Positions 33,948-42,760 of a stretch of 44,850 bases of DNA are shown piece after piece. The stretch spans positions 1 to 44,850 of the forward strand of contig PMCA01000036.1 of the NCBI GenBank assembly GCA_003153935.1, read 5' to 3'. The notes under the pieces were generated by a model, which searched no databases, was not told where the DNA came from, and was given only the letters and a program-made list of their open reading frames with translations. Position numbers and translations under genes: made by a program. Within the stretch, counting starts at the first letter, position 1. Every line of letters starts with the position of its first letter. Origin of the DNA: Elusimicrobiota bacterium. Lineage in GTDB: Bacteria; CAYTYR01; UBA6262.

Positions 33948-34868
33948 ATGAAAAAACACCAGCCAGCTTACCTTAAATCTCACTCCGACGGCACTTTAGC
34001 TAAGAAATTGGCCGCGGCCAACGCGCGCCTGCAACACTGCGACCTGTGTCCACGCCGCTGCCTGGTTAACCGGCAGGCTGGCGAGAAGGGGTTTTGCGGC
34101 GCTGGCGCGGATCTGAAGATCTCCTCCTATAACGCTCATTTCGGGGAAGAACCGCCGATCAGCGGGACTCATGGTTCGGGTACTATTTTCTTCACGGGCT
34201 GTAACCTGCGCTGCGTTTTTTGCCAGAACTATCCTATCAGCCAGCTGGGCCATGGCCAGCCGTTCACTGTCCGGGAACTGGCGGATATCATGCTGGAGCT
34301 AAAAAAGAGAAAATGCCACAATTTAAACCTGGTAACCGGCGCCATTTACCTGCCGCAGATCCTGTCCGCCCTGGAGCTCGCTATAAAAGAAGGATTTGAC
34401 CTGCCCCTGGTTTATAACTGCAGCGGTTATGAATCCCTGGACGCCCTGGAGTTGCTGGATGGCATAGTAGATATTTACCTGCCTGACGCCAAATATAACG
34501 ATCCCCGAATGTCCAAAAAATATTCCCAATCTGCTGATTACCCTGAAATAAACAAACTGGCGCTAAAGGAAATGTACCGCCAGGTAGGCGACCTTATTCT
34601 TGATGAAGAGGGTCTGGCGGTCCGGGGATTGATCATCAGGCATCTCGTCCTGCCGGAAAATATCGCCGGTAGTGAACAAGTACTGGAATTCATTGCCAAA
34701 GAAATATCTGCCCAAACCTTTCTTAGCCTCATGGCCCAATACCATCCCGCGCATTTAGCCAGCAACTTCCCCGAGCTATCCCGCCGTCTGACCAAACCTG
34801 AATATGAGCGGGTCGTGGACAAGCTCCATGAACTGGAACTGGATAATGGCTGGTGCCAGGAATTATAG
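33948..34868 (+). CDS. Radical SAM protein, PflX/COG1313 type
   Basis: Radical SAM iron-sulfur protein of the PflX-like group. The protein has 306 residues. A first cysteine motif CDLCPRRC (about 28-35) with a following FCGAG precedes the SAM-cluster motif C85-x3-C89-x2-C92 in CNLRCVFCQN. NLVTGAIYLPQI and YNCSGYES further match this group. The substrate is unknown. A Memo-family gene lies directly downstream with its own likely promoter; such radical SAM and Memo genes are often neighbours. Family is secure, function open. Confidence 0.85.
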   Translation: MKKHQPAYLKSHSDGTLAKKLAAANARLQHCDLCPRRCLVNRQAGEKGFCGAGADLKISSYNAHFGEEPPISGTHGSGTIFFTGCNLRCVFCQNYPISQLGHGQPFTVRELADIMLELKKRKCHNLNLVTGAIYLPQILSALELAIKEGFDLPLVYNCSGYESLDALELLDGIVDIYLPDAKYNDPRMSKKYSQSADYPEINKLALKEMYRQVGDLILDEEGLAVRGLIIRHLVLPENIAGSEQVLEFIAKEISAQTFLSLMAQYHPAHLASNFPELSRRLTKPEYERVVDKLHELELDNGWCQEL

Positions 34869-34932: not shown

Positions 34933-35742
34933 ATGCGCAGGGCTCCCATAGTAGCCGGACAATTTTATGCCGGTAGTGAAAGAACTTTGATAACCGAGGT
35001 CAAAAAGTTCCTGTCCAAAGACACGGAAGCCAAAAAACGGGCTTTGGGCATCATGGTGCCTCATGCCGGTTATATCTATTCGGGACGAGTGGCTGGCAGC
35101 GTTTACGGCCGGATAGAAATGCCGGCCACAGTGGTCATGATCGGACCTAATCATACCGGGTTCGGGCACATGGTTTCTTTAATGGCTGAGGGCACCTGGA
35201 CCACACCGCTGGGGGTATGTTCCATAGACGACATCCTGGCCCAAAAGATCATCAAGAATTGCGACCCCTTGATCACTGTCGACAGCTCCGCTCACCAGCG
35301 CGAACATTCGCTGGAGGTGCAACTGCCATTCCTGCAATACCTCAAAAAAGATATAAAGATAGTTCCTATCTGTTTGGCTGATTATAGCTTAGAGGTTTGC
35401 CGAAACCTGGGGACGGGAATTGCCAAGGCCATCGCCGCCAGCGCCGAGCCAACTCTGGTGCTGGCATCATCGGATATGACTCATTACGAATCTAAAGCCA
35501 GCGCCCGGGAGAAAGACAATCTGGCGATCAAGGATATTCTGAACCTGGCTCCGGAAAGCTTAATGGCCACCGTGACCAGCCAGGAGATCAGCATGTGTGG
35601 TTCAGGTCCAACGGCCGTTATGCTGTTTGCCGCCAGGATACTGGGAGCCACCAAAGCCGAATTGACCATGTATGACACCAGCGGTACAGTCACCGGCGAC
35701 GACAATTCAGTAGTAGGCTACGCTGGGATTATTGTTAGTTGA
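34933..35742 (+). CDS. amrB: AmmeMemoRadiSam system protein B (Memo family)
   Basis: Memo-family protein with the extradiol-dioxygenase-like fold. The 269 residues match the full length. The N-terminal PIVAGQFYAGSE, VPHAGYIYSGRVAGSVY (His near 49), GPNHTG, QREHSLEVQLPFLQY and SSDMTHYE give the metal-site histidines; MCGSGPTAVM is the conserved Cys region. GAGGAG lies 6 bases before the ATG. The upstream neighbour is a radical SAM protein of the PflX type; the AMMECR1 partner of the usual triad is not in the window. The biochemical role is uncertain for the whole family. Confidence 0.88.
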   Translation: MRRAPIVAGQFYAGSERTLITEVKKFLSKDTEAKKRALGIMVPHAGYIYSGRVAGSVYGRIEMPATVVMIGPNHTGFGHMVSLMAEGTWTTPLGVCSIDDILAQKIIKNCDPLITVDSSAHQREHSLEVQLPFLQYLKKDIKIVPICLADYSLEVCRNLGTGIAKAIAASAEPTLVLASSDMTHYESKASAREKDNLAIKDILNLAPESLMATVTSQEISMCGSGPTAVMLFAARILGATKAELTMYDTSGTVTGDDNSVVGYAGIIVS

Positions 35743-35789: not shown

Positions 35790-36809
35790 ATGACTGAGAT
35801 CAGGAAGGACCCCTTTACCGGACAATGGATAGTAACCGGCACCGAAGGCGAGCAGGATTTTTTTACTTCGCTGGCCCTGCAGGAAAAAACTGAATGGAAG
35901 GTTTGTCCTTTCTGCCCCGGCAGTGAAAAAGTCAGCGGCAAGGAAATTTACGCGTTACGGACCCCCGGCACGCCGGCGGACAGTCCCGGTTGGGAAGTGC
36001 GGGTGATCGTTTCCAAGCAGGCGGCACTGCAGATCGAAAGCGATCCGGACCGCCGGCCCGAAGGCATGTACGACCTGATGAATAACGTCGGCGCGCATGA
36101 AGTTATAATCGAAACTCCCGACCATATCAAGAACCTTTCCAATCTTTCCGTTGACCAGGTAACCAAGGTCTTGAGCACTTACCAGGCGCGCATGCGTGAC
36201 CTGGAAGGGGACCGCCGGTTTAAATACTCCCTCGTATTCAAGAACCAGCGCAAAGCGAGCAAATACCGCCTGGGACACTCGCACTCGCAACTGGTCGCCC
36301 TGCCCATTACGCCGAAAAGCATAAAAGATGAACTGCAGAATTCACGCGAATATTACAGTTATAAGGAGCGCTGCCTTTACTGCGACGTTATCACCCAGGA
36401 GCTTAAGGACCCCAAGAGGATCGTGGAAGAAAACGATTATTTCGTGGCCATTACTCCTTTTGCCAGCCGTTTCCCTTTCGAGGTCTGGGTCCTCCCCAAG
36501 AGGCACAACTGCGATTACCTGCGGGAAAGCTACGACAGCATCAATAACCTGGCCAAGATACTGAAAGGCAGCCTGCTGCGTATAGAAAAAGTTCTGGATG
36601 ATCCTCCGCTGAATTACATGCTGCATACTGCACCGTACCTGCGCGAGCGGGAAGGTTACTGGGGAACCATCCGCGACGACTATCACTGGCACATCGAGAT
36701 CACGCCCCAAATCCTGGAGCTGACTGGATTCGAGTGGGGCACTGGTTCGTACATCGAGCCTTTGCTGCCGGAAACTGCGGCCCAGATCCTGCGCGACGTC
36801 AAACTATAG
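35790..36809 (+). CDS. GalT-family nucleotidyltransferase (HIT superfamily)
   Basis: The protein has 339 residues. Annotation as galactose-1-phosphate uridylyltransferase would be usual: it starts MTEIRKDPFTGQWIV, has zinc-type CPFC (Cys39, Cys42), a second CLYC pair, and FPFEVWVLPKRHN. The active-site motif is H163-S-H165-S-Q167 rather than the classical HPHxQ of GalT. HSHSQ is what I recall for ADP-glucose phosphorylase-like relatives, so the true sugar nucleotide is uncertain. GGAGG lies 5 bases before the ATG. It is followed 8 bases later by a MarC-family gene. Confidence 0.8.
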   Translation: MTEIRKDPFTGQWIVTGTEGEQDFFTSLALQEKTEWKVCPFCPGSEKVSGKEIYALRTPGTPADSPGWEVRVIVSKQAALQIESDPDRRPEGMYDLMNNVGAHEVIIETPDHIKNLSNLSVDQVTKVLSTYQARMRDLEGDRRFKYSLVFKNQRKASKYRLGHSHSQLVALPITPKSIKDELQNSREYYSYKERCLYCDVITQELKDPKRIVEENDYFVAITPFASRFPFEVWVLPKRHNCDYLRESYDSINNLAKILKGSLLRIEKVLDDPPLNYMLHTAPYLREREGYWGTIRDDYHWHIEITPQILELTGFEWGTGSYIEPLLPETAAQILRDVKL

Positions 36810-36817
36810 GGGATGCC

Positions 36818-37426
36818 ATGGCTGATATTTACATTCTGCTTAAACCGTATATTTTAAGTTTCATTCCCATATTCGTCGCTATAGATGTTTTCGGGATCCT
36901 GCCTATATTCATCGGCTTGACCGGCGACATGAGCAGGGAGCACAGGAACGCCAATATTATTCAATCCGTGCTCACCGCGACGACCATCGCCATCATATTC
37001 ATGCTGGTGGGAAAGCTGATCTTCCTGATCATGGGTATCACCGTGCCTGATTTTAAGATCGCCGGCGGCATCCTGCTGCTAATCCTGTCAGTAAACTTGC
37101 TCCTGCCCGGGGACCAGTCCCGGAAACATCATTATACCGACGCGGGTATCTTCCCGATCGGCACGCCATTGATCACCGGTCCGGCCGTATTGACCACCAC
37201 TCTGGTCCTGACCGACACTCTCGGTTGGTTCCCAACCTTCATCTCCCTGATCATTAATATGCTGATCACCTGGGCGGTTTTGCGTAAGAGCGAGGTCCTG
37301 ACCAAGATCATCGGAATTAACGGTATGAGAGCCTTCTCCAAAGTGGCAGATATCCTGCTGACCGCCATCGCGGTCATGATGATACGTAACGGCGTCATTG
37401 AGATCTACCGCGTGTATTTTCGCTAA
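36818..37426 (+). CDS. MarC-family (UPF0056) integral membrane protein
   Basis: The protein has 202 residues from the ATG at 36818, with about six membrane segments. FIPIFVAIDVFGILPIF and IFPIGTPLITGPAVLTT are the two conserved MarC half-motifs. The frame is open upstream into galT (to 36734), but AGGGG just before ATG 36818 and the normal MADIYILL-type start favour the short form. Function of the family is unknown; the name MarC does not imply drug resistance. Confidence 0.88.
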   Translation: MADIYILLKPYILSFIPIFVAIDVFGILPIFIGLTGDMSREHRNANIIQSVLTATTIAIIFMLVGKLIFLIMGITVPDFKIAGGILLLILSVNLLLPGDQSRKHHYTDAGIFPIGTPLITGPAVLTTTLVLTDTLGWFPTFISLIINMLITWAVLRKSEVLTKIIGINGMRAFSKVADILLTAIAVMMIRNGVIEIYRVYFR

Positions 37427-37472: not shown

Positions 37473-37501
37473 ATTTTTAGCACTGAAAAAGGAGGAACAA
37501 C

Positions 37502-38011
37502 ATGATAAAGGACATCTCTTCTCTTTTCAAGAAAACCAGTTCGCACATCATCGCGGAAACGATCAAAGCGGGCGGAGCGGTATTAGGACTGGAAGTTGAT
37601 AAATTTAACGGCATCCTGGTAAAAAACGATAAATTGAGCAACTTACTGCAGGATGAGATCGTCGCTAAGGCCGGAGTCCACGGGTTTATTTCCACTGATG
37701 AGCTGCCGCAATACGGAATTAACCTGGATGATAAAAAGAAGATATTGAAAGCTTTCAGTTGCGGTAAAGATGACGTGGTCGTGATCGTGGCCGACATAAG
37801 AGCCAAAGCTGAAGCAGCCCTGAAAATAATTGAGCAAAAGATCTCCGAGCGCCAGGCCAAAACAAAAGGCAAACCCAAGAAAACCGTCAAGCCCGCCAAA
37901 AAGGTCAAGAAGACCAATCCCAAAAAGGCCGCCAAAGCCAAGAAAGCCAAGAAGACAAAACCAAATAAAGCTAAAAAAACGGCGCAGAAAAAGAAAGCCA
38001 AAAAGAGATAA
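37502..38011 (+). CDS. Stand-alone GAD-like domain protein with histone-H1-like lysine tail
   Basis: The protein has 169 residues. Residues 1 to about 115 form a compact domain with GGAVLGLEVDKFNG, GVHGFISTDELPQYGI and DDVVVIVADIRAKAEAAL. This resembles the GAD domain of archaeal GatE, and more distantly the GAD insertion of bacterial AspRS, by my recollection of (F/I)HTDELPxYGI and the VVxVADxxxxAExAL ending. Residues about 116-169 are nearly all Lys, Ala, Pro, Thr (KGKPKKTVKPAKKVKKT onwards), like H1-type basic tails. AAGGAGG lies 8 bases before the ATG, behind its own promoter. A nucleic-acid-binding role is inferred from the tail; nothing else is known. Confidence 0.7.
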   Translation: MIKDISSLFKKTSSHIIAETIKAGGAVLGLEVDKFNGILVKNDKLSNLLQDEIVAKAGVHGFISTDELPQYGINLDDKKKILKAFSCGKDDVVVIVADIRAKAEAALKIIEQKISERQAKTKGKPKKTVKPAKKVKKTNPKKAAKAKKAKKTKPNKAKKTAQKKKAKKR

Positions 38012-38167: not shown

Positions 38168-41100
38168 ATGGAGAGAAAACTAGTAACTTTATTACTGGGA
38201 ATGTTTCTATTATTTCCCGGTAATGTTCTTTTTGCCGCTACCGCGCATGATTGGTTAGCTGCGCAGCAGTATCCCACCGGATTGGTTGACAGCTTTGAAG
38301 GGGACGGTTCCACCGTCGCCTATACTTACGACCAAGCCTGCGCCGTCATAGCTTTCACCTGCGAGAACGACCTCACCCGCGCCAAAAAAATACTCGATAA
38401 ATACGCTGCCATGCAGAACGCCGAAGGCAGCTGGGATAATGGCTATTTTGCCGACACTGGATTGGCTACGTCCACCTGGCGCCGCAGCGGCGAAACCTTG
38501 TGGATGATCCTGGCCATGAACTACTATACCAGGAAAACCGGAGACACCACCTACAAAGCCAGCGCCAAGAAAGCCATGGACTGGATAATTACCCTGCAGG
38601 AGACCAACACTGCCGATCCCCGCTATGGTTCGATCTATGGCGGTTTGACCGATACCGGAGCCCGCGAGACCTGGACCAGCACCGAACACAATTTAGACGC
38701 CTATTCCGCCCTCTATTACACCGGAGAGATCCAAAATAACCAATACTACAAAGATAAAGCCCAGCTGGTTTACAATTACCTGGTAAACAAGATGTGGGAT
38801 AACAATGCCGGTCGGTTCTATACCGGTTATAATGATTACAGCACTTACCTTGATCCCCAGAGTTGGTCGGTAGTGGCTATCGGCAAGACCGGTCCCGCCG
38901 GCCAGGATTTTACGCGGGCGATCACTTTTGCCTATAACAATATGCATATAACCCGCAGCCTTAGCGGCGTGACCTACGACGGTTATGACTATGACGGCAC
39001 TATAACCGCGCCGGGTGGCGGGGTCTGGTTCGAGGGCACCGAGCAAATGGCCGTTACCTATGAGTTCCTCGGCAATACTACCCAGGCCAATTATTACCAT
39101 GCGCAGGTCGCTAAAGCCCAACAGGCCAATGGCGGCGTGTGGTGCGCGGTCGGCGATGGAGCGGACTACTCCTGGCCGACCAACTTTCAGCATAGCGCCG
39201 TAGCTACGACCAGCTGGTTTGTTTTCAGTTCCCAAACCCCCAGGGTCAATCCCTTCATGCCGCCGGTCCCGTCGGCCGATACGACACCGCCGGTGATATC
39301 CGGAGTGGTAGCCGGCAGTATAACTGCCAATTCGGCCTCCATAACCTGGACCACTAATGAATCCAGCGATTCACAGGTTGAATACGGCTTAACCGCTTCC
39401 TACGGGAACAGCACTACTCTTAACACCAACCTGGTCCTGAGTCACAGCGTTAATCTTACCGGTCTTACCTCCAACACGCTTTACCATTATCGCGTAAAAT
39501 CCAAAGATTCTGCCGGCAATTTAGCGACTGGCGTGGACAATAATTTTACAACTTCAAACACAACTCCACCGCCGAGCGGCTCCAAGAATTACGCCCCGAC
39601 CACATTGGTAACGACCCAGGGTAACGGCACCGGGAATTATGCGAACTTGTCTGCTGACGATAACGTGTTCTACTCCAACAATGCCCAGCAAACCGGATCG
39701 ACTTTTTACACTGACTGGTACGCCGGTACGACTATCGCTGAAGCCAAGGCCAATGTAACCAAGTTGACGCTGACCTGGAACGGCCATTACACGACCAGCC
39801 AATATCAGGGATTGTTCCTCTACAATTTTGTCTCGGCAACTTGGGCCAGGCTGGATTACCAGCTCGTAGGCACCGCAGAACAAACTATCGTCTTTTCTAC
39901 TACCGACATCGCCAGTTACATTTCCGCTACCGGTGAGATCAGGTTAAGAACCTATACGGAAAGTGCCAGCAATGTCGCCTGCTACGCGGATTATGTCAAT
40001 TTCGCCGTGGATACCAACGGGACGGCCGATACCACACCGCCCGTTATTTCCGCGGTATTATCTTCGGCCATTACTACCACTGGTGCGACCATTACCTGGG
40101 CCACTGATGAGAATAGCGACACCCAGGTGGAGTATGGCGCGACCACGTCTTACGGCAGCAGCTCTGCTCTTAATACTTCAATGGTCACAAGCCACAACGT
40201 AACTCTAACCGGATTAACCAGCAGTACCTTATACCACTTCAGAGTCAAGTCCAAGGACGCGTCCGGGAACTTAGCTACCAGCGGCGATTATACTTTTACC
40301 ACCTTGGGCAGTGGGAGTATGTCCAGAAATTATCAACCCAGTGGTATAACCGTCACTCAGGGAACAGGGCAGGGGAGCTATGCTAACCTGGCCGCTGACG
40401 ATAATAGTTTCTACTCGGTAAACGCCATGCAGAACGGAACCTCTTTCTATACCGATTGGTACGCTAACGCTACTATTGTTGAAGCGCCAACTTCCATTAC
40501 TAAACTGACCGTGACCTTTAACGGTCACTATACCTCTAACCAAGCGCAAACCTTATATCTGTATAACTTCGTAACCAGCGCCTGGGACAGCATTGACTCG
40601 TCAACAGTAGGTACGACCGAGATGACCCTGACGATCATTAAGACCACCAACATCACCAACTACATCTCGGGCACCGGCGAAATAAGACTGCGCGACTACA
40701 CGCAAAGAGCCGATAATGTGTGCCTCTATGCTGACTATATCAATTTCGCCGTCGAATATAATAACGTCGCTGACACTACGCCGCCAACCATCAGCGCGGT
40801 CACCAGCGGCAGCATTACCAATACCACCGCGGTTATTACCTGGACCACCAACGAGAACAGCGACACCCAGGTAGAATACGGAACGACCGCTTCTTATGGC
40901 AGTAGCACGGCTTTAAATTCGACAATGACGCTGAGCCATACGGCCAACCTGGCCGGATTAGCCAGCGGCACAGCCTATCACTACCGCGTTAAATCCAAGG
41001 ACTCAGCCGGTAACCTGGCCACCAGCGGCGATTATACTTTCACGACTACGGGCACGCAAACTAAGGATTACCTGGCAACTTCCATCATTATGACCAGGGG

Positions 41101-41836
41101 GACCTTTAGCGGTAACGTCGGCAGTTTGGCTGCTAACGACAGCAGTTATATGGCGGTAACATCAGCCAGACAGGGCAATACGTATTATATTGACTGGTAC
41201 GCGAAAACCGTCATTACCGAGACGCCTGCCAAAGTAGCTAAACTTACCGTAACCTACGATGGGAAATATTCTTCCAGCCAATCACAGGGTATTTTCCTTT
41301 ACAACTTTGTTTCCGGCGTGTGGGCGCGGCTCGATTACCGGTCGGTCGGCACTGTAGATACGACCATTGTCATTCCGACCACGGCGATATCCAGCTATAT
41401 TTCCGCCACCGGCGAGATACGGGCGCGCCTCTATACGCAAAGCTCCTACAACCACATCTGTTATGCCGATTATATAAAGTTCAATATTGAGATGAAAGCA
41501 GGGGGCAGCCAGGCCATTCAAAGCATAACTACTACAGCCGCCGCTTTGAACGGCGGGGAAACCAAACTGTATGATAACCTGTTCAACCCGGCCAGGGGTG
41601 AACGCGCCCGCCTCGATTACACGATAGACGATGAGGGTCAGGTAACCGTCAAAATATACAATATAGTGGGTGAACTGGTTCGCACCCTGGTTGATGATAA
41701 TAAATCCGCCGGCAGCTATACCGAATACTGGAACGGCAAGAATGACAGCAGCGAAACCGTAGCCAGCGGTGTTTACCTGTTCTTTATCGAAGCGCCCGGC
41801 ATTAAGACCATTAAAAAAGCCGCAGTTATAAAATAA
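38168..41836 (+). CDS. Large modular secreted protein with alpha-barrel, three Fn3/beta-sandwich pairs and FlgD-like C-terminus
   Basis: The protein has 1222 residues. A signal peptide is about 1-24. Residues about 25-365 form a helical, six-hairpin-glycosidase-like region (SAKKAMDWIITLQE, YSALYYTGE, GGGVWFEGTEQMAVTYEFLG). Then three units of about 250 residues follow, beginning at 371, 621 and 869. Each has a fibronectin-III-like domain (DTTPPxIS to HYRVKSKDSAGNLAT) and a beta-sandwich of unknown type (FYTDWYAxTTI to YADYVNFAV). The last about 90 residues are FlgD-Ig/type-IX-sorting-like, ending SGVYLFFIEAPG then a Lys-rich KKAAVIK. The substrate is unknown; surface polysaccharide is a guess. 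TAGGAG precedes the ATG. Confidence 0.75.
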   Translation: MERKLVTLLLGMFLLFPGNVLFAATAHDWLAAQQYPTGLVDSFEGDGSTVAYTYDQACAVIAFTCENDLTRAKKILDKYAAMQNAEGSWDNGYFADTGLATSTWRRSGETLWMILAMNYYTRKTGDTTYKASAKKAMDWIITLQETNTADPRYGSIYGGLTDTGARETWTSTEHNLDAYSALYYTGEIQNNQYYKDKAQLVYNYLVNKMWDNNAGRFYTGYNDYSTYLDPQSWSVVAIGKTGPAGQDFTRAITFAYNNMHITRSLSGVTYDGYDYDGTITAPGGGVWFEGTEQMAVTYEFLGNTTQANYYHAQVAKAQQANGGVWCAVGDGADYSWPTNFQHSAVATTSWFVFSSQTPRVNPFMPPVPSADTTPPVISGVVAGSITANSASITWTTNESSDSQVEYGLTASYGNSTTLNTNLVLSHSVNLTGLTSNTLYHYRVKSKDSAGNLATGVDNNFTTSNTTPPPSGSKNYAPTTLVTTQGNGTGNYANLSADDNVFYSNNAQQTGSTFYTDWYAGTTIAEAKANVTKLTLTWNGHYTTSQYQGLFLYNFVSATWARLDYQLVGTAEQTIVFSTTDIASYISATGEIRLRTYTESASNVACYADYVNFAVDTNGTADTTPPVISAVLSSAITTTGATITWATDENSDTQVEYGATTSYGSSSALNTSMVTSHNVTLTGLTSSTLYHFRVKSKDASGNLATSGDYTFTTLGSGSMSRNYQPSGITVTQGTGQGSYANLAADDNSFYSVNAMQNGTSFYTDWYANATIVEAPTSITKLTVTFNGHYTSNQAQTLYLYNFVTSAWDSIDSSTVGTTEMTLTIIKTTNITNYISGTGEIRLRDYTQRADNVCLYADYINFAVEYNNVADTTPPTISAVTSGSITNTTAVITWTTNENSDTQVEYGTTASYGSSTALNSTMTLSHTANLAGLASGTAYHYRVKSKDSAGNLATSGDYTFTTTGTQTKDYLATSIIMTRGTFSGNVGSLAANDSSYMAVTSARQGNTYYIDWYAKTVITETPAKVAKLTVTYDGKYSSSQSQGIFLYNFVSGVWARLDYRSVGTVDTTIVIPTTAISSYISATGEIRARLYTQSSYNHICYADYIKFNIEMKAGGSQAIQSITTTAAALNGGETKLYDNLFNPARGERARLDYTIDDEGQVTVKIYNIVGELVRTLVDDNKSAGSYTEYWNGKNDSSETVASGVYLFFIEAPGIKTIKKAAVIK
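39278..41495 (+). repeat. Three tandem 744-750 bp coding repeats
   Basis: The codons for Asp of DTTPP fall at 39278, 40028 and 40772, giving periods of 750 and 744 bases (250 and 248 residues). Copies two and three share stretches such as the codons for TSGDYTFTT (near 40277 and 41021), suggesting they are the most recent duplication. Each unit is one Fn3-like plus one beta-sandwich module. Confidence 0.85.
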
Positions 41837-41854
41837 ATGACCATGGAGAACAAA

Positions 41855-42760
41855 ATGAGACATCTAAAATTTCTGGGGATTTTGCTGACGGGACTGCTGA
41901 CCGCGCAACTGCTTTATGCCGGCGCCGGGACCACCGGTGCGGTGGTACTGAAGGAATCTATCGGCGCGCGGGCGACAGCCATGGGTGACGCGTATGTTGG
42001 CATAGCCAGCGGAGCTGACGCCATATTCTGGAATCCTGCCGGTTTAGCGGAAATGAAAACCCGGGAGATCGGCGCTATGTACCTGAAAGACGTAGCTGAT
42101 ATTGACTTTGAGACTATTAATTATGTCCAACCCCTGCCGCACGGCCAGGCAGTTGCTATAGCGATTGAGAGATTGTCCGCCGGGAACCTGGAGATCAATT
42201 ACCTGGATGGGACGTCCCGTACCGTCAACGCTCAAAGTGATTTCGTGTATAATGCCGCATACGCGAAACAAATATTAGACAATTTGAGCGCCGGTGCAAA
42301 CTTTAAGTTACTCAGCAGCAACCTGGCGGAAACCGAGACGGCGTCCGCCTACGCCGTCGACCTGGCCGTGCTCTACAAACTGGCAACAGTTAAGGGTTTA
42401 TCAATGGGAGCGAACATCCAGAATATAGGCAGTGGTATCAAGTACATCAGTGAAACAGATCCTTTACCCTTGAATGTGAAAGTAGGAGCCGCCTATAGAA
42501 CGGAAGTGAAAAACGATGTTTTAACCGTAGCGGCTGACTTCAACAAGCCGAAAGAGCTTTCCAGCCGGGTTAACCTGGGCTTTGAATACCTTTATAACAA
42601 AATAATGGCCTTTAGGGCCGGTTATAAGATCGGATATGACCTTGACACCTTCACCGCTGGGTTCGGCTTTAAAATCGGCAATTACGGGCTTGATTACGCG
42701 TTTGCGCCCAAGGGTGATTTAGGCAACAACCACCGGCTGTCATTTAGTCTTAATTTTTAA
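41855..42760 (+). CDS. PorV/PorQ-like outer-membrane beta-barrel protein
   Basis: The protein has 301 residues from the ATG at 41855. I chose that start because GGAG (41845-41848) lies 6 bases upstream; ATGs at 41837 and 41843 lack a site. A signal peptide ends about residue 23 (LLYAGA). The hallmark SIGARATAMGDAYVGIASGADAIFWNPAGLA identifies the PorV/UPF0164 FadL-like family. Repeated amphipathic strands end in a terminal Phe (FSLNF), typical of barrels. It follows the large secreted protein after 18 bases, a pairing that fits PorV carrying type-IX-like cargo. Confidence 0.85.
   Translation: MRHLKFLGILLTGLLTAQLLYAGAGTTGAVVLKESIGARATAMGDAYVGIASGADAIFWNPAGLAEMKTREIGAMYLKDVADIDFETINYVQPLPHGQAVAIAIERLSAGNLEINYLDGTSRTVNAQSDFVYNAAYAKQILDNLSAGANFKLLSSNLAETETASAYAVDLAVLYKLATVKGLSMGANIQNIGSGIKYISETDPLPLNVKVGAAYRTEVKNDVLTVAADFNKPKELSSRVNLGFEYLYNKIMAFRAGYKIGYDLDTFTAGFGFKIGNYGLDYAFAPKGDLGNNHRLSFSLNF

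Follow-up and report, generated by a model that had tools for sequence, protein, structure and literature searches.

The GAD domain is known as an insertion within large enzymes. In bacteria, it belongs to the synthetase AspRS, and lack of the domain in AspRS is reported to accompany a slower release of Asn-tRNA from the asparagine transamidosome (PMC9499178). In archaea, it is inserted in GatE, an amidotransferase subunit of ~620 aa for which structures are available (1zq1 and 2d6f). Since GAD has been studied only inside such enzymes, its own role is poorly understood. A second element of importance here is the H1-like tail. H1-like DNA-binding proteins typically carry Lys/Ala/Pro tails, with bacterial examples provided by Hc1- or AlgP-like proteins. 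In the 44,850-nucleotide stretch of an Elusimicrobiota bacterium genome analyzed in this study (hereafter the window), we found a small protein in which, in contrast to archaeal GatE, GAD makes up the entire folded part, and is joined to a tail of this type.

The GAD protein is encoded by a complete gene preceded by a strong Shine-Dalgarno sequence (Table 1), with no promoter or terminator consensus found on its strand. As for its domain, the resemblance to GAD lies well outside what chance would give. The Pfam GAD model PF02938 (curated cut-off 23.4 bits) matches residues 18–107 with 26.4 bits when the domain is searched alone and 23.9 bits when the whole protein is used, while a tail-less orthologue scores 35.9 bits. 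Matches to GatE models are significant as well, with 76.5 bits for the archaeal model NF003107 (E 1.5e-21), in which residues 2–129 align to GatE positions 281–408, and 52 bits for TIGR00134 (E 3e-14). The closest sequences in the PDB are GatE chains (1zq1_C, E 8.8e-14; 2d6f_C, E 1.4e-8). An AlphaFold model generated with 13 related sequences as input is confident (pLDDT 90, pTM 0.83), and Foldseek returned GatE on top (TM 0.82–0.87, the highest value being for 1zq1), followed by the GAD domains of AspRS (TM about 0.7–0.8). Likenesses to KH domains (E of at least 0.24 in Foldseek) and to the C-terminal region of RecA (E 0.07) were discarded as not significant. The original prediction of a GAD-like domain in residues 1–115 is therefore borne out by profile, fold and comparison, with its span corrected to about 1–118.

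Table 1. Features of the free GAD gene and of the genes upstream, with their positions in the window.
Feature	Positions	Strand	Remarks
Radical SAM protein, activase-like, below AmrS cut-off	33948..34868	+	In shared gene block
Memo-family protein (AmmeMemoSam_B)	34933..35742	+	In shared gene block
GalT-like protein	35790..36809	+	Adjoins free GAD gene in f187 too
MarC/NAAT-family membrane protein	36812..37426	+	Upstream neighbour; also upstream in 3/3 same-family genomes, with a NAXE-like gene between
Shine-Dalgarno AAGGAGG, strong	37489..37495	+	Read directly from sequence
Stand-alone GAD protein gene, complete, 169 aa	37502..38011	+	ATG start; orthologues in 3/3 same-family genomes; purifying selection
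GatE-type GAD domain, residues 1–118	37502..37855	+	Profiles, PDB sequences, pLDDT 90, Foldseek
DELPQYGI motif, residues 66–73	37697..37720	+	Common to free GADs and GatE, not to AspRS GADs
Lys/Ala/Thr/Pro tail, residues 119–169	37856..38008	+	Net charge +27, predicted disordered; 4/4 f1 genomes

The domain had been likened to the GAD of either GatE or AspRS, and only the first likeness holds up well. AspRS models match far more weakly than GatE models, with 14–16 bits (E 0.003–0.01) and in the insert region only. Sequence identity over the structural alignment with the archaeal GatE insertion is 31–33%, compared with only 12–19% for the AspRS insertion despite a shared fold. Moreover, a DELPxYG motif, which extends to DELPxYGI in archaeal GatE and in the window protein, is present in all 13 free GADs and in all six GatE sequences (in one of them split by an insert), whereas it is found in none of 18 AspRS. 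In a phylogenetic tree, the free GADs lie beside the GAD domains of GatE and away from those of AspRS (split 74/86), in a clade with support of 84/93. These values are only moderate, as expected for a domain of 118 residues. Judged by sequence comparison, the free GAD protein is thus of the GatE type and not of the AspRS type. It is nevertheless neither of these enzymes, since it covers only GatE positions of about 280–408, without the cradle (kinase/amidotransferase) and tail domains that surround the GAD of GatE, and scores 52–76 bits against GatE cut-offs of 320–456, and at 169 aa it is devoid of the class II catalytic core and the anticodon-binding domain of AspRS. In the archaeal genome G386, which encodes both GatE and a free GAD, an insertion of ~20 residues splits the DELP...YGI loop of GatE itself (locus L062), while the loop of the free GAD is intact.

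The second part of the protein was predicted to be a Lys/Ala/Pro tail of about 54 residues. There is indeed a basic tail, although it is 51 residues long and also contains Thr: it consists of 51% K, 18% A, 10% T and 8% P, with no acidic residue. Over 40 residues, the Lys content reaches 53%, compared with 28% in the window's next-highest open stretch. The tail thus resembles Hc1- and AlgP-like tails in composition and predicted disorder, being long, probably unstructured and rich in Lys, Ala and Pro, a likeness by which we do not claim homology to histone H1. It is confined to the family to which the window's genome belongs (f1), where it occurs in all four genomes, the three relatives having tails of 44–45 residues with a matching make-up, and it has been kept although synonymous sites are near saturation in the wider pairs. 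Orthologues outside f1 are tail-less proteins of 118–121 aa and are acidic (pI 5.1–5.7). Together, profile, fold and comparative evidence upheld the notion of a free GAD bearing an H1-like lysine tail.

The gene is conserved beyond the window. It was found in the three same-family genomes that were searched (56–61% identity), and dN/dS between near relatives is 0.04–0.12 in the + frame. This indicates that a functional protein is made in this frame, and that a 184-aa ORF overlapping the gene on the opposite strand is not required to explain the conservation. When a sample of 386 bacterial genomes was searched by profile, nine contained free GAD genes (E < 1e-33, open frames of 120–184 aa), cleanly apart from AspRS-embedded GADs (E > 1e-8, frames mostly of about 600 aa). 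The bacterial free GADs fall into three families from three different candidate phyla, f1, f187 and f96, with genes in five of six genomes of the f187 phylum (one copy being shortened) and three of six of the f96 phylum. The shortened copy, in genome G781 (L110:1501-1722), is in frame, encodes roughly 70–79 aa and has lost the STDELPxYG half. Among 390 archaeal genomes, two (G386 and G390) have a free GAD, the remaining strong matches being embedded in GatE. In G390, the gene shares its contig with those for eIF6, ribosomal protein S19e and a PDCD5-type double-stranded-DNA-binding protein, so that this archaeal copy does not stem from a stray bacterial contig. By label, carriers include Elusimicrobia MAGs (e.g., UBA6262), Clostridia MAGs and one Thermoplasmatales MAG. 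A second bacterial survey, which drew largely the same genomes, revealed no further lineage, and a match in the distant genome G048 (E 5e-4) was discarded because it is an Hsp20-like gene. A mobile or viral origin was rejected, as no relatives turned up among plasmids, phages and viral contigs, and neither a PHROG family nor a meaningful match in PADLOC was obtained. In the bacteria of all three phyla and in the two archaea, the genes have 118–169 codons, and the domain of the window protein, with its STDELPxYG, fills 118 residues from start to end in a gene of its own; the 13-member alignment has 19 invariant columns. The window protein therefore almost certainly belongs to a family of conserved, free-standing GAD proteins of the GatE type.

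The genomic context of the free GAD gene is conserved only in part. A block consisting of radical SAM, Memo and GalT-like genes, with the GAD gene at its end, is shared by f1 and f187, to which are added MarC in f1 (plus a NAXE-like gene in the sister genus) and endonuclease V, PolX and a second GalT-like gene in f187. In f187, the GAD gene is one gene away from polX, and Fpg and endonuclease V genes are near. At L053:5184-9056, PolX is flanked by two GalT-like paralogues directly upstream of the free GAD gene; the substrate of these paralogues may not be galactose. As for the AmmeMemoRadiSam system (AMMECR1, Memo and AmrS), Memo is three genes upstream of the GAD gene in the window and a true AmrS lies about 5 kb from it in G390, while the radical SAM protein of the window scores 22 bits against an AmrS cut-off of 220. 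No Memo gene was found in the f96 stretches read, where the neighbours are a nitroreductase, a glycerophosphodiesterase and a macro domain protein. In the archaeon G390, the genes are transcribed in the order cinA, polX, ligA, topA, GAD and FBPase, with a gap of 17 bp between topA and GAD, and in G386 the GAD stop codon overlaps the start of a gene with weak likeness to NucS endonuclease (21.5 bits). No gat gene was present on the GAD contig of any carrier checked. Similarly, no tRNA gene adjoins the GAD gene in the window, L053, L057–L060 or L099–L102, the nearest being a tRNA-Ala gene about 1 kb away in f96. Elsewhere in the window, positions 38168–42760 encode a protein of 1222 aa that combines three fibronectin-III-type repeats with GH114-associated domains and a FlgD-Ig/C-terminal sorting-like domain. 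It adjoins a PorV-like protein, and these features hint at secretion by a type IX-like system. At positions 11–27447, a single co-directional cluster running from a guaA-like gene to carA/carB contains a near-complete gene set for the biosynthesis of purines and pyrimidines and is followed by alaS, as read from the translations.

Enzymes with an embedded GAD are found alongside the free protein in some carriers. In contrast to archaea with GatE, the bacteria with a free GAD encode GatCAB but lack a full-length GatE; GatB was identified in the genome of the window (G000) and in most carriers checked. A split GatE was rejected, since matches in G000 correspond to GatB and the free GAD only, with no other piece of GatE. 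In the three same-family genomes (G001–G003), there is an AspRS with its own GAD and a LysRS in addition to the free GAD, and class II matches are AspRS- and LysRS-like only, leaving no third gene as a possible AsnRS. Together with the presence of GatB, this suggests that tRNA-dependent Asn synthesis is probably used. In G000 itself, which is 95% complete, no class II AspRS, AsnRS or LysRS gene and no PF00152 match was detected, probably because of assembly gaps, as both AspRS and LysRS are present in G001–G003. The PF02938 marker, which normally reports AspRS, is satisfied in G000 by the free GAD. That the free GAD compensates for a loss of AspRS was rejected because G001–G003 carry it besides a GAD-bearing AspRS. 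In G386, a 642-aa frame encodes a complete GatE that includes a GAD. The free copy thus appears superfluous for GatE in G386 and for AspRS in G001–G003, each of these enzymes having a GAD of its own.

What might such a protein do? The accessory role in binding tRNA, the ribosome or DNA that was originally proposed is plausible, even though it is weakened by the finding that the tail exists only in f1. Since orthologues in other lineages are tail-less and acidic, nucleic-acid binding is not established as the core property of the family. We tentatively favour a small adaptor, which may use its GAD surface to dock to a partner that handles RNA in translation, its tail adding nucleic-acid affinity in f1. 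The inserted GAD module of GatE would then be made as its own 118-residue protein retaining the GatE-specific DELPxYGI loop, the partner would most likely be tRNA, or an amidotransferase or synthetase for misacylated Asp/Glu-tRNA, and the lysine tail would act in f1 as a general tether raising local nucleic-acid affinity without sequence specificity. Docking to tRNA or the amidation machinery appears likeliest because GAD is otherwise found only in Asp/Glu-tRNA enzymes and the GatE-specific loop has been kept. The probable use of tRNA-dependent Asn synthesis and the reported slower release from the transamidosome when AspRS lacks GAD also speak for it. The absence of gat linkage and of an adjoining tRNA gene, the presence of GAD in GatE of G386 and in AspRS of G001–G003, and the existence of acidic tail-less members count against this adaptor.

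Because linkage to gat genes was never seen and two lineages have the gene near DNA-repair genes (polX in both, in one of them within a topA-ligA run), a serious rival is an accessory role in DNA repair or topology, for which the free GAD would have been recruited, with the H1-like tail as a DNA tether. Such recruitment, which we consider unlikely, is in keeping with the position of the gene at the end of the G390 run, with its neighbours in f187, with the NucS-like overlap in G386 and with the resemblance of the tail to those of H1-like DNA-binding proteins. However, neither the Memo, GalT-like and MarC context in f1 nor the context in f96 is one of DNA repair, PolX is common to just two lineages, where two stretches of 20 genes could overlap by chance, members without a tail are acidic, and we know of no GAD that binds DNA. 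The broader scenario, in which a domain of tRNA enzymes became independent and found a new use, in both bacteria and archaea, as a DNA-maintenance adaptor in topA-ligA-polX contexts, acquiring a histone-like tail in one candidate phylum, is quite doubtful.

The acidic nature of the tail-less orthologues and the heterogeneity of the neighbours would suit a protein-protein module with no nucleic-acid function of its own, which dimerises or docks to some enzyme, for which the conserved DELPxYG loop could serve as a surface, the tail being a lineage-specific add-on. We consider this as unlikely as the DNA role; among the solved structures found, the parent domains are confined to tRNA enzymes, and the tail is retained in all four f1 genomes. 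Finally, a lone domain without its enzyme could be what is left of a gatE or aspS gene that has decayed, and the 79-aa in-frame copy of G781 might be taken as support. Identical boundaries in archaea and in bacteria of three phyla, strong purifying selection, a complete GatE in the same G386 genome and a confidently predicted, well-formed fold make a relic extremely improbable.

While the GAD domain is known, an independent and conserved GAD protein, with or without a tail, is apparently undescribed. This agrees with the initial impression that it had not been described and is consistent with the literature searched, which includes few subscription journals and cannot prove absence; databases may already carry such proteins as generic "GAD domain-containing protein." An isolated, soluble GAD of 118 residues would allow the binding partner and activity of the domain to be tested directly. 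Moreover, the family would show that the insertion domain of GatE exists, or once existed, in independent form, with implications for how GatE came by its GAD.
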